NCBI RefSeq assembly: GCF_018449695.1
Contig: NZ_JAAVUY010000001.1
Span: 1 to 64,000, forward strand
Direction: 5' to 3'
DNA: 64,000 bases
DNA from: Bradyrhizobium sp. dw_411
GTDB taxonomy: Bacteria > Pseudomonadota > Alphaproteobacteria > Rhizobiales > Xanthobacteraceae
The position numbers were made by a program, and so were the translations under genes. Shown here in pieces: positions 21,462 through 24,596 of this stretch (positions within the stretch are counted from its first letter, which is position 1; every line of letters begins with the position of its first letter). The notes below the pieces were generated by a model, which searched no databases, was not told the DNA's origin, and saw only the letters and a list, made by a program, of their open reading frames with translations.

Positions 21462-22601
21462 TCAGCTACGGCGGACAATCTGACCGGAATCGACGCCAAA
21501 CACTTCGCCCGACGAACCGATGCCGGCGAACGCGGCGGGATCGGCGCCGGTCATCCAGACCTGCGCGCCAAGCTTGGCGAACTCGTCGAACAACGCCAGA
21601 CGCCTGCCGGGATCAAGATGGGCCACCACCTCGTCGAGCAATAGCAGCGGCGTGATACCGGTCATCTCGGTGACCAAAGTGGCATGCGCCAGCACGAGAC
21701 CGATCAGCAGCGCCTTCTGTTCGCCGGTGGAGGCGTCGCGGGCCGGCATGTTTTTCGGCGCGTAGATTACCTGCAAATCCGTCAAGTGCGGACCATCGAG
21801 GGTGCGGCCGGCGATCGCGTCGCGCGGGCGGTTGCTGCGCAGGATTTCGCGATACCGATCCTCCACCGCGGTGGCGGGTTCCGACAGCAATGCATTTTCC
21901 ATCCAGCCGTCGAGCATGATCTGCGCGGAGGGAAATGAAGACGTTTCACCGCGGGCGCGCAGCATCGCGGCGAGTTTCGCCACGGTCTGGCCGCGCATCG
22001 CAGCCACCGCAACCGCGAGTTCGGCGGTTTCGCGTTCAATCGCGTCGCACCAGTGGTCGTCGTAATTGCGCACTTCGAGGAGCCGGTTGCGCGAGCGCAA
22101 AGAGCGATCCAGCGCCGACACCCGCGCCGAGTGCTCGCTGTCGATCGCCAGCACCAGCCGGTCGAAAAACCGCCGCCGCTCCGATGCCGCGCCCAGAAAC
22201 AGCCCATCCATCGAAGGCGTCAGCCACACCATGCGCAGATGATCGCCGAACGCCGTGGCCGAACCTACCGGCTCGCGATCGATCCGGCAGCGCCGGCTGG
22301 TCGCGGCCGCCTCGCTGCCCGGCGCATCAATGCCGGTGCCGAGCGTCGCCAGCCCAAGCGCGCCTTCGACCTCGGCGGACACCGCCCACGAACCGTCGCC
22401 CTGATTGTCGGCGACATCGTCGAGCGTCGCGCGTCGCAAGCCTCGCCCCGGCGATAAAAACGAAATCGCCTCGATGCAATTGGTCTTGCCGGCGCCGTTG
22501 GGCCCCACCAGCACCACCACGTCGCCCCGCGTCTCCAGACCAGCCGCGCGATAATTGCGGAAGTGGGTGAGGCTGAGGCGATGAATACGGGAGGCGGTCA
22601 T
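21462..22601 (-). CDS. recF: DNA replication and repair protein RecF
   Basis: An SMC/ABC-like ATPase that works with RecO and RecR to load RecA at single-strand gaps. 379 residues; Walker A GPNGAGKTN near residue 35, signature-region residues DASTGEQKALLIGLVLAHA and Walker B LLLLDEVVAHLDPGRR, all intact. The start MTASRIHRLSLTHFRNY matches the usual RecF beginning; the longer frame to 22658 would add residues encoded by the flanking palindromic repeat. In most relatives recF directly follows dnaN, but here a DUF559 nuclease unit lies between them. Confidence 0.96.
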   Translation of the reverse strand: MTASRIHRLSLTHFRNYRAAGLETRGDVVVLVGPNGAGKTNCIEAISFLSPGRGLRRATLDDVADNQGDGSWAVSAEVEGALGLATLGTGIDAPGSEAAATSRRCRIDREPVGSATAFGDHLRMVWLTPSMDGLFLGAASERRRFFDRLVLAIDSEHSARVSALDRSLRSRNRLLEVRNYDDHWCDAIERETAELAVAVAAMRGQTVAKLAAMLRARGETSSFPSAQIMLDGWMENALLSEPATAVEDRYREILRSNRPRDAIAGRTLDGPHLTDLQVIYAPKNMPARDASTGEQKALLIGLVLAHATLVTEMTGITPLLLLDEVVAHLDPGRRLALFDEFAKLGAQVWMTGADPAAFAGIGSSGEVFGVDSGQIVRRS

Positions 22602-22618: not shown

Positions 22619-22686
22619 TTTCTTCCCTCTCCCCTTGTGGGAGAGGGTGGCGCCTCACGAAGTGAGGCGACGGGTGAGGGGTTCTT
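22619..22686. repeat. Palindromic repeat CCCTCTCCCC family, left copy
   Basis: The sequence CTTCCCTCTCCCCTTG, then the inverted GGGAGAGGG, and a second stem GCGCCTCAC/GTGAGGCG form two hairpins, followed by GACGGGTGAGGGGTTC. The inverted partner at 23051-23107 is identical except for an 8-base deletion in the second stem. The nuclease stop codon overlaps its inner edge. Confidence 0.9.
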
Positions 22687-23050
22687 ACGGTTCGACGAGC
22701 TTTGCCAGAATGTCCTCCAAAACGCTGGACGGTCGTTGCAACACGTCATTGTTCCAGTAACGCTCGATTCGGAAGCCTTCGGCCTTCAGGATCGCTTCTC
22801 TCTCCATGTCGCGCTCCGACGATGCATGCTGACTGCCGTCGATCTCGATAATGATCCGTTTTTCGAAGCAAACGAAATCGAGAATAAAGGCCTGAAAGGG
22901 CACCTGCCGCCGAAATTTGAAGAGCGCAAATCGCCGGTCGCGCAGCAACCGCCACATCGCCACTTCGGCATCCGTCGGTTCATGGCGCATTTTCTTCGCA
23001 AAATTGCGGATGCGCCTGGCGGTCGGTCGATGGTGTGGCGGCTGTGGCAC
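22685..23050 (-). CDS. DUF559 endonuclease-like protein (Vsr / PD-(D/E)XK fold)
   Basis: About 121 residues matching DUF559, a family related to very-short-patch-repair and restriction-type nucleases. Key stretches are TDAEVAMWRLLRDRRF, LFKFRRQVPFQAFILDFVC and IIIEIDGSQHASSERD; the Asp of LDF and the EID pair are the expected metal-binding residues, and the end WNNDVLQRPSSVLEDIL is typical. The likely GTG start (23050) lies at the inner edge of the right palindromic repeat, which supplies GAGGGG just upstream, and the stop overlaps the left repeat. ATG at 22990 is an alternative start but would cut the first helix. DNA cleavage and mobility are inferred, not shown. Confidence 0.85.
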   Translation of the reverse strand: MPQPPHHRPTARRIRNFAKKMRHEPTDAEVAMWRLLRDRRFALFKFRRQVPFQAFILDFVCFEKRIIIEIDGSQHASSERDMEREAILKAEGFRIERYWNNDVLQRPSSVLEDILAKLVEP

Positions 23051-23107
23051 GAACCCCTCACCCGTCGCCTTCGGCGCCACCCTCTCCCACAAGGGGAGAG
23101 GGAAGAA
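23051..23107. repeat. Palindromic repeat CCCTCTCCCC family, right inverted copy
   Basis: Inverted copy of 22619-22686: the plus strand reads GAACCCCTCACCCGTCGCC, a short GCC/GGC stem, then CCCTCTCCCACAAGGGG and AGAGGGAAGAA. The two copies bracket the DUF559 gene as inverted terminal repeats of a unit of about 490 bases. Confidence 0.9.
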
Positions 23108-23128
23108 CACCACCCATGACGACCGTAA

Positions 23129-24247
23129 CTACACCCGCATCGGCATCAGCACGTAGAGTGCGCCCTTGGAATCCTTGTCCTGGACCAGCGTGGGCGAACC
23201 GGGATCGGCCAGCCGCAGGACTGCGACCTCGCCTTCGATCTGGGCCGCGATATCCAGGAGGTAACGCGAATTGAATCCGATATCGAGCGGGTCGGAGGCG
23301 TATTCGACTTCGAGCTCTTCGGTCGCGCTGCCGGAATCCGGATTGGTTACCGACAGCACCAGCTTGCCGGCGGACAGCGCCAGTTTCACCGCCCGGCCGC
23401 GCTCGCTTGAAATGGTCGAGACGCGGTCGACCGCAGCCTCGAAATCCTTCTTGTCGACGACGAGTTCCTTGTCGTTGTTCTGCGGGATCACGCGGCCATA
23501 ATCCGGAAAGGTGCCGTCGATCAGTTTCGAGGTCAGGACCACATTGCCGATGGTAAAGCGGATCTTGCCCTGTGAAAGCTCAAGACCGACCTCGGCCTCA
23601 TTGTCCTCGATCAGGCGCTGAACTTCGCCAACGGTTTTGCGCGGCACGATCACGCCCGGCATGCCCGTGGCCCCCTTGGGCAGAGCGAGGTCGATCTGGG
23701 CCAATCGATGCCCGTCGGTCGCAACCGCGCGCAGGGTTGCGGCCTTGGCGCTGCCGGCCGAATGCAGATAGATACCGTTGAGGTAGTAGCGGGTTTCCTC
23801 GGTCGAGATCGCAAACTGGGTGCGATCGATCAGCCGCTTCATGTCGGCGGCGGCGAGCGTAAACGAATGCGTCATATCGCCGGCGGCGAGATCCGGGAAA
23901 TCGTTTTCCGGCAGGGTCTGCAGCGTGAAGCGCGAACGGCCGGCGCGGATCGCCAGCACCGAGCGATCGCCGTCGCCTTCGAGCACGATCTGCGCGCCGT
24001 CGGGCAATTTGCGCACGATGTCATAAAACATGTGCGCCGGGACGGTGGTTGAACCCGCGGTTCCGGTTTCCGCCGCCAGCGTTTCCGTGACCTCGAGATC
24101 GAGGTCGGTGGCTTTAAGCGACAGCCGCGAATTTTCAGCGCGGACCAGCACATTTCCGAGGATCGGAATGGTGTTGCGGCGCTCGACCACACGGTGGACG
24201 TGGCCCAGCGACTTCAGGAGTTGCGCGCGTTCGACGGTAACCTTCAT
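23129..24247 (-). CDS. dnaN: DNA polymerase III beta subunit (sliding clamp)
   Basis: The ring-shaped dimer that tethers polymerase III to DNA. 372 residues is the standard length. The N-terminus MKVTVERAQLLKSLGHVHRV and VVERRNTIPILGNVLV are diagnostic, and the end LVQDKDSKGALYVLMPMRV is the conserved C-terminus with the peptide-binding pocket region. The ATG at 24247 is chosen; the 34 upstream codons are not clamp-like. It is preceded by a 349-base gap from dnaA, long enough for its own promoter. Confidence 0.98.
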   Translation of the reverse strand: MKVTVERAQLLKSLGHVHRVVERRNTIPILGNVLVRAENSRLSLKATDLDLEVTETLAAETGTAGSTTVPAHMFYDIVRKLPDGAQIVLEGDGDRSVLAIRAGRSRFTLQTLPENDFPDLAAGDMTHSFTLAAADMKRLIDRTQFAISTEETRYYLNGIYLHSAGSAKAATLRAVATDGHRLAQIDLALPKGATGMPGVIVPRKTVGEVQRLIEDNEAEVGLELSQGKIRFTIGNVVLTSKLIDGTFPDYGRVIPQNNDKELVVDKKDFEAAVDRVSTISSERGRAVKLALSAGKLVLSVTNPDSGSATEELEVEYASDPLDIGFNSRYLLDIAAQIEGEVAVLRLADPGSPTLVQDKDSKGALYVLMPMRV

Positions 24248-24596
24248 TGCAATACCCGCCTGGTCCGAAGATGGAAAAGCCGGGCGGCCCCGAAGGCGCG
24301 CCGCGGCATTTGAAACCCGAAAAGCCCGATCAAAGCTGGATTTGATCAAACCCGTGGGGGGACCGCAAGGTGGCGCGGATGGCCCGCCAGCGCAAGAGAC
24401 GCGTCACGCCGTTCCCCACGTTTTGCGAGGAAATTCCAAGAGAAATACCAAGGAAATACAATGTACGGACAGCGCTCCGGCCGACAGCCGGGGCCTTAAC
24501 CCCTGATGTCGACTGGCGCAAAAGCTGGCAGCGGTCCCGGCCTTCGCCGGGACCGCTGGTCGATGGCACATTAGATGGACCCCTGGCGGGCGGCGC
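24248..24596. other. Intergenic region between dnaA and dnaN
   Basis: No gene is seen. On the dnaA side lies a strong hairpin (24530-24557). Near 24430-24465 the plus strand has imperfect copies of AAATTCCAAG / AAATACCAAG / AAATACAATG; on the minus strand these read as TTGG-rich AT tracts that could contain the dnaN promoter, but no clear -35/-10 pair was identified. Confidence 0.6.
24530..24557 (-). terminator. Hairpin downstream of dnaA
   Basis: AGCGGTCCCGG and CCGGGACCGCT form a perfect 11-bp stem with a 6-base loop, 39 bases beyond the dnaA stop. Only a short TTTT follows on the minus strand, about 6 bases after the stem. It could be a weak terminator or a member of the same repeat family as 7818-7845. 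Confidence 0.55.

Follow-up and report, generated by a model that had tools for sequence, protein, structure and literature searches.

The spreading of dispersed hairpin repeats has so far been ascribed to one enzyme family alone, which is unrelated to the nucleases described here. In the sections of PMC2817692 and PMC3116915 that deal with RAYT genes, the anatomy is the same as that of the locus reported below, with an HUH transposase as the enzyme, and these genes are said to be always framed by repeats (PMC2817692). A further class, the CGTC REPs, is presented in the available text of PMC3733652 as short hairpin dimers that are common in Alphaproteobacteria, present in Bradyrhizobium and, according to the authors, apparently without a dedicated transposase.

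We analyzed a 64-kb window (the whole stretch of 64,000 nucleotides under study), in which a DUF559 nuclease gene lies between two inverted hairpin repeats at the dnaN-recF junction. As far as the REP/RAYT literature is quoted above, the likeness extends beyond this layout: inverted dimers of the framing repeats are scattered through the genome, the enzyme varies together with its repeat, and the gene outpaces its neighbours in evolution while mostly staying put. The differences are that DUF559 is a Vsr-like PD-(D/E)XK nuclease whereas RAYT is an HUH tyrosine transposase, that the DUF559 repeat carries a G-rich tag in place of GTAG, and that its framing is frequent, not universal. The repeats of the window also share with CGTC REPs, as these are characterized in the text available, the form of short hairpins in dimers. 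However, they have another stem without CGTC at its end: a CGTC REP has CGTC next to an 8-9-bp stem starting with AT, and the hairpin of the window, CCCTCTCCC, falls outside this definition. Moreover, the CGTC-like repeats that we found frame GIY-YIG genes, not DUF559 genes. Free-standing homing endonucleases resemble the DUF559 system in a putatively related fold, with a weak match to the I-Bth0305I domain (3r3p), and in the patchy occupancy of conserved sites, but none is known to have matching dispersed hairpin repeats. The Vsr mismatch endonucleases have a similar fold (1cw0, E 0.05) and their family model weakly matches the protein encoded in the window; nevertheless, the score of 16.5 bits is far under the Vsr cut-off of 97.85, and Vsr genes are not framed (0/29).

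The position of the gene between dnaN and recF, given in the original prediction, was confirmed by the ORF list and by PF04480, and so was its exact packing between the repeats: with its candidate GTG start at 23050 and its stop codon ending at 22685, it measures 366 nt, which is the whole interval between the inner arms. The right repeat does provide the GAGGGG that had been proposed, whereas the GTG behind it (23050-23048) adjoins the inner arm, and the frame stays open further upstream, past the repeat, as far as a GTG at 23113. The left repeat had been thought to overlap the stop codon; in fact, the codon (22685-22687) abuts it. The two copies are identical apart from 8 bases, as predicted. 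Their outer arms (22620-22654 and 23073-23107, 35 nt) and inner arms (22665-22684 and 23051-23070, 20 nt) are 100% complementary, and the sole difference, 10 nt on the left (22655-22664) against 2 nt on the right (23071-23072), is confined to the second hairpin, which is trimmed by 4 bp on each side in the right copy. Reading of the sequence revealed neither CGTC at the edge of the hairpin nor a GTAG tag. The core hairpin pattern, with a tolerance of 3 mismatches, has 2 matches in the window (0.07 expected), both at the DUF559 locus. The right copy folds with a z-score of -3.3, and for repeat arms of four different subtypes the hairpin fold beats 200/200 shuffles each (z -3.1 to -6.5). The ORF list lengthens recF into the left repeat, to a GTG at 22658; the start of RecF is present in 60/60 genomes of the genus, which supports the ATG at 22601.

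Table 1 Features of the window and of related junctions in other genomes.
Feature	Position or locus	Strand	Description and basis
DUF559 nuclease gene	22685..23050	-	Candidate GTG start adjoining right repeat, to stop; ORF list, PF04480
Left repeat copy, 65 nt	22620..22684	+	Hairpin, second hairpin, gene-facing G-rich tag; inverted-repeat search
Right repeat copy, 57 nt	23051..23107	-	Same parts, gene-facing G-rich tag included; second hairpin 8 nt shorter; inverted-repeat search, fold
First hairpin, left copy	22625..22647	+	9-bp stem, 5-nt loop; pattern match, 0 mismatches
First hairpin, right copy	23080..23102	-	9-bp stem, 5-nt loop; pattern match, 0 mismatches; fold
Second hairpin, left copy	22652..22668	+	7-bp stem, 3-nt loop; read from sequence
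Second hairpin, right copy	23067..23075	-	Shorter stem; read from sequence
recF	21462..22601	-	ATG at 22601; ORF list, SMC_N match
dnaN	23129..24349	-	Longest open frame, putative start; ORF list, three DNA_pol3_beta domains
dnaN-recF GIY-YIG loci	L161, L164, L172, L176, L179, L184, L187, L192, L196, L197, L200, L207, L212		CGTC-type REP framing
pheS-pheT DUF559 units, subtypes C and E	L042 242-1393 and 1908-3323		

The protein encoded in the window is a DUF559 member (PF04480, 119.6 bits against a curated cut-off of 20.6, E 7.2e-35); only DUF559 and MTES_1575 matched it, with no match to the HUH tyrosine transposase model (PF01797) or to any other transposase model. Its predicted structure has a confident core (74/142 residues at pLDDT ≥90). 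The solved relative 3hrl, a Neisseria protein, was found both by sequence (E 2.6e-19) and by fold (E 5.2e-7). Once two ribosomal proteins are set aside, the next solved structure is 3r3p, the catalytic domain of I-Bth0305I, with a weaker fold match (E 1.8e-3, TM-score 0.69 by target). Twelve residues are invariant across 31 chosen DUF559 domains, some of them presumably catalytic, going by the PD-(D/E)XK and Vsr literature.

In the 7.3-Mb genome from which the window comes, its repeat has 72 matches (with a 100% self match), and pairing used 64 of 71 matches to give 32 inverted pairs. Thirty of these pairs are dimers of 117-186 bp; only two are longer (466 and 488 bp), and both contain DUF559 genes. 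The genome has four DUF559 genes, two framed by the repeat of the window, a third by a different 39-nt perfect inverted repeat, and a fourth unframed. The framing score is that of a local alignment between the left flank and the reverse-complemented right flank. On this scale the two GIY-YIG protein matches of the genome reach 26.5 and 25.5, with framing repeats from a further family. The inverted pair around the single Y1_Tnp gene is weak (14.5), differs from these repeats and starts with GTAG.

The framing of DUF559 genes recurs in many other genomes. We scored 40 regions of 18 kb each, one per genome and all outside the genus, taken from the 56 candidates noted outside the genus and loci L065-L094; they were picked before the scores were known, and the remaining 16 were left out for reasons that include contig ends. 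At a score of at least 18, 24/40 DUF559 loci were framed against 0/1,921 same-size intervals of the same regions, and at a score of at least 16 the counts were 27/40 and 3/1,921. The original prediction would have been refuted had the repeats surrounded unrelated genes just as often; this did not occur, no control interval being framed at 18. Further DUF559 loci reached 18 in 13 of 30 cases, and Vsr genes in 0 of 29. Within Bradyrhizobium, 69 of the 80 distinct loci with enough flank (a subset of all matches) scored at least 16 and 67 at least 20. Outside the phylum, a DUF559 locus of Bacteroidaceae is framed with a score of 37. Among seven plasmid loci, hand-picked among the 25 matches listed, four reach 18, including two (54 and 65) that belong to Pseudanabaena, a cyanobacterium; those of Synechocystis (9.5), Picosynechococcus (16) and Shinella (9) stay below. 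We counted as evidence against a REP/REPIN system the DUF559 loci unframed at 18 (16/40 and 17/30) and the unframed KSB1 and Flavobacteriales loci (10.5 and 13), together with those of Synechocystis and Shinella. A tally of named loci (52/62 framed) is unusable as a rate because the repeat itself codes for one of the peptides used in the search (FFPLPLWE). Y1_Tnp genes, tried as a positive control, were framed in 0/20 cases; the scorable top matches may be IS200-like, not RAYT.

The repeat and the nuclease occur together. One hairpin pattern of the window class was counted in 397 Pseudomonadota genomes and found in 127 of them, the reversed pattern used as a control being nearly absent. With strong DUF559 defined by a threshold of our own (E below 1e-20), at least five repeats were present in 74/116 genomes with a strong DUF559 match versus 18/281 others, and the former held 4,025 of the 4,507 repeat copies. 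Pooled within 16 families, including f41, the association had an odds ratio of 66 (p 2e-11); an earlier run on 12 self-chosen families without f41 had given 107. Against the REP/REPIN reading we counted 42/116 strong-DUF559 genomes with fewer than five copies of the counted pattern, 11 genomes with at least ten copies and no strong DUF559, and family f41, in which 0/4 genomes fit the pairing. In genomes without strong DUF559, the odds ratio of GIY-YIG with the repeat was 1.8 at one copy (p 0.23) and 3.4 at five copies (p 0.02).

The repeat also varies with the enzyme it frames. The repeats around DUF559 genes in Bradyrhizobium fall into at least eight subtypes, two of which were counted in eight genomes with patterns drawn up after the loci had been seen, weaker DUF559 matches in these genomes being left untyped. 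The subtype-B repeat has 6, 4 and 33 copies in the three genomes typed with a subtype-B nuclease and 0 in the other five; for the subtype-G repeat, the counts are 12, 19, 12 and 88 in the four genomes that encode a subtype-G nuclease, against 1, 1, 0 and 1 in the remaining genomes. Over 67 Bradyrhizobium loci, protein identity correlates with arm similarity (r 0.67, 0/5,000 permutations as high), and for pairs at different sites, averaged by locus group, r is 0.53 (14 groups, 0/10,000 permutations). Without averaging, the correlation of these pairs falls to 0.25, which we counted against the REP/REPIN reading, and shared ancestry of unit and repeat may contribute part of the co-variation. Four locus groups include subtype G, and its proteins are 78-84% identical in the pairs listed. 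We also considered that the tag might copy the 3' stem with mismatches; the combined p was 3e-5, but many loci were null alone and the 17 arms were hand-picked, and the idea was dropped. Putative G-quadruplex potential was noticed as well.

The dnaN-recF junction of Bradyrhizobium turns over rapidly. The same gene does not occupy the site in all relatives, a case that would have spoken against a movable unit: 28 of 60 genomes have DUF559 there, and the other 32 have a GIY-YIG gene (14) or repeat dimers and remnants (18, with L166 remnant-like and L201 aside). An empty site had also been anticipated, but inspection by eye of the 60 junctions, L201 aside, found none free of repeat remnants. When occupancy is mapped on a dnaN tree (56 genomes, with L166 scored as DUF559), it requires 18 changes, against a mean of 18.9 for shuffled labels (197/500 shuffles as low as 18), and the starred branches of the tree force at least 9 changes. 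The DUF559 genes at this junction have a dN/dS of 0.08, similar to DnaN, which indicates purifying selection; their median dS is 1.72 versus 0.46 for DnaN (162/253 pairs, those with finite values), and DUF559 identity is below DnaN identity in 253/253 pairs. All 24 scored loci of this locus group belong to subtype A. The pattern at dnaN-recF fits the exchange of old alleles or homing better than plain descent. In Bradyrhizobium, pheS-pheT, another conserved housekeeping junction, holds DUF559 subtypes C and E. The L334 allele had appeared to be a clean empty pheS-pheT site, but a one-sided repeat remnant is still there; as many of the alleles compared are occupied, the empty-site scan was not counted. 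At dnaN-recF of L206, one of the 14 genomes with GIY-YIG there, a junction of 149 nt is a GIY-YIG unit deleted internally, with both repeats and the first codons retained, as expected for a small derivative element. GTAG-type repeat dimers were seen by eye at dnaN-recF of L188, L203 and L204; thus, three repeat classes have landed at this junction.

The original prediction, that the unit is movable and spreads through cutting and copying, is partly supported. The small dimers have become numerous, with 88 matches to subtype G in a single genome, and framed units occur at new places, namely the four locus groups of subtype G and a cyanobacterial gene. The latter is on a Pseudanabaena galeata plasmid (L429 947-5812), where, by eye, a methyltransferase gene contains a framed in-frame DUF559 unit (~200 codons) directly before the DPACGSG of this BREX-type enzyme; at this place a short linker is present in two relatives (67% and 64% identity). 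Also by eye, the same gene has more repeat-coded in-frame stretches downstream, without a nuclease. In contrast, many nuclease genes sit at few conserved junctions, and the quick change at dnaN-recF may represent allele exchange by recombination. As for cutting and copying, the genomes compared display no event of cleavage, transposition, excision or insertion. Alignment of six subtype-G dimers from a single genome shows a constant first hairpin and tag and a second hairpin of variable length; similarity stops near the first hairpin, with no target-site duplication apparent by eye. Two equal-scoring DUF559 copies in G011 looked like a recent transposition, but recF stands beside both, revealing a duplicated stretch.

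The structure of the unit, its recurrence in many genomes, the matching dispersed dimers and the co-variation of repeat and nuclease are established by these comparisons. Because of the framing, the co-variation and the dispersed dimers, a REP/REPIN system with a nuclease partner is best supported, and the analogy to REP/RAYT made in the original prediction, with a Vsr-like nuclease as the enzyme, is well supported by frequent and specific framing, REPIN-like dimers and matched subtypes. We therefore regard a framed DUF559 gene as likely to be an enzyme-bearing member of the REP/REPIN family in which a Vsr-like nuclease replaces RAYT, and the enzyme probably helps to spread its framing repeats. 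The nuclease would recognize the repeat hairpin, probably when this is extruded or single-stranded in replication, and would cut or nick there; host repair could then copy the dimer to new sites. It would act in trans on dimers, as is thought for RAYTs on GTAG REPs, while its own gene would remain mostly fixed at few conserved junctions, with rare moves or recombination of junction alleles.

Homing at the junctions is a close rival, possible although on the whole somewhat doubtful as the full explanation, and it may operate alongside the REP/REPIN mechanism. The nuclease would cut junction alleles that have no unit and repair of the break would copy in the whole unit, from a sister allele or from incoming DNA; the repeats would mark the ends or shield the occupied allele, and DUF559 and GIY-YIG units would compete for the same junctions. 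The likeness of the fold to the I-Bth0305I domain, the homing-type fold of GIY-YIG proteins, an occupancy of dnaN-recF that follows the dnaN tree no better than shuffles do, the presence of subtype A alone at this junction and the high dS of the nuclease gene relative to DnaN all agree with it. However, the I-Bth0305I match is weaker than that to 3hrl, ordinary recombination between strains could yield the same turnover, and homing alone leaves the many dispersed dimers, subtype-matched to the nuclease, unexplained.

The remaining explanations appear less probable. It is unlikely that DUF559 is a resident repair enzyme, e.g. for Vsr-like mismatch repair, with the repeats as terminators, regulators or tolerated guests. 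Such a role has been proposed, in the portion available of PMC12907096, for a Caulobacter DUF559 protein that causes an SOS response in cells without cytosine methyltransferase, and the dN/dS at dnaN-recF indicates that function is kept; but Vsr genes themselves are never framed in our sample, and neither patchy occupancy among close relatives nor subtype matching would be expected. We consider it very improbable that the repeats are moved by a transposase from another locus, e.g. a RAYT, and that DUF559 is a passenger between two copies. Y1_Tnp genes do occur in 141/259 genomes searched and once in that of the window, yet the latter has its own weak pair with GTAG; a passenger should also vary, whereas both gene-sized intervals of the genome contain DUF559 and no control interval of the 40 regions is framed at 18. 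Chance, or an insertion bias that lands repeats on either side of short intergenic genes, is hardly credible: unrelated framed intervals do exist, as 3/1,921 controls at 16 and, in the GIY-YIG comparison, 2/884 at 18 attest, but at 18 the DUF559 regions give 24/40 against 0/1,921, and the similar-sized Vsr genes are unframed.

A second nuclease family behaves in a similar manner. The GIY-YIG gene of the junction (PF01541, E 4e-16) belongs to a family framed at 18 in 13/20 regions from other genomes versus 2/884 control intervals; some GIY-YIG genes are common to this tally and to the one with Vsr genes, and the two are not additive. The arms of several GIY-YIG loci resemble the CGTC REPs in the form given by the available text of PMC3733652. 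We tentatively entertain, as a reading nearly as apt to prove right as wrong, that there are at least three parallel REP classes with nucleases of unrelated folds, GTAG/RAYT (HUH), CGTC/GIY-YIG and GGGTGAGGG-like tag/DUF559, of which the last two spread by breakage and repair. If so, DUF559 and GIY-YIG would be partners of the homing-endonuclease type, their repeats, which would need no transposase to spread, would be mobile repeats of a sort without earlier description, and REP mobility would not be bound to one transposase family. It would also provide a testable function for two widespread, poorly characterized families, and a candidate mover for CGTC REPs, a question left open in the text available of PMC3733652. 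No link of DUF559 or GIY-YIG to REPs appeared in titles or abstracts of open PMC papers among the matches listed, nor was any enzyme linked to the hairpin class of the window in the open papers searched; subscription papers and preprints are mostly outside this scope, and such absence does not prove novelty.

Some DUF559 domains lie next to or within defence-type genes, indicating that the family has further uses, and a defence library gave weak matches only, to the end of two large proteins. The left repeat of the window (22623-22681) weakly matches whalefall-1 of Rfam (18.8 bits against a gathering score of 37), a family which might itself include repeats of this class. In the scoring of regions, a framing repeat was also found at L116, which we take to resemble the rhizobial element RIME1.
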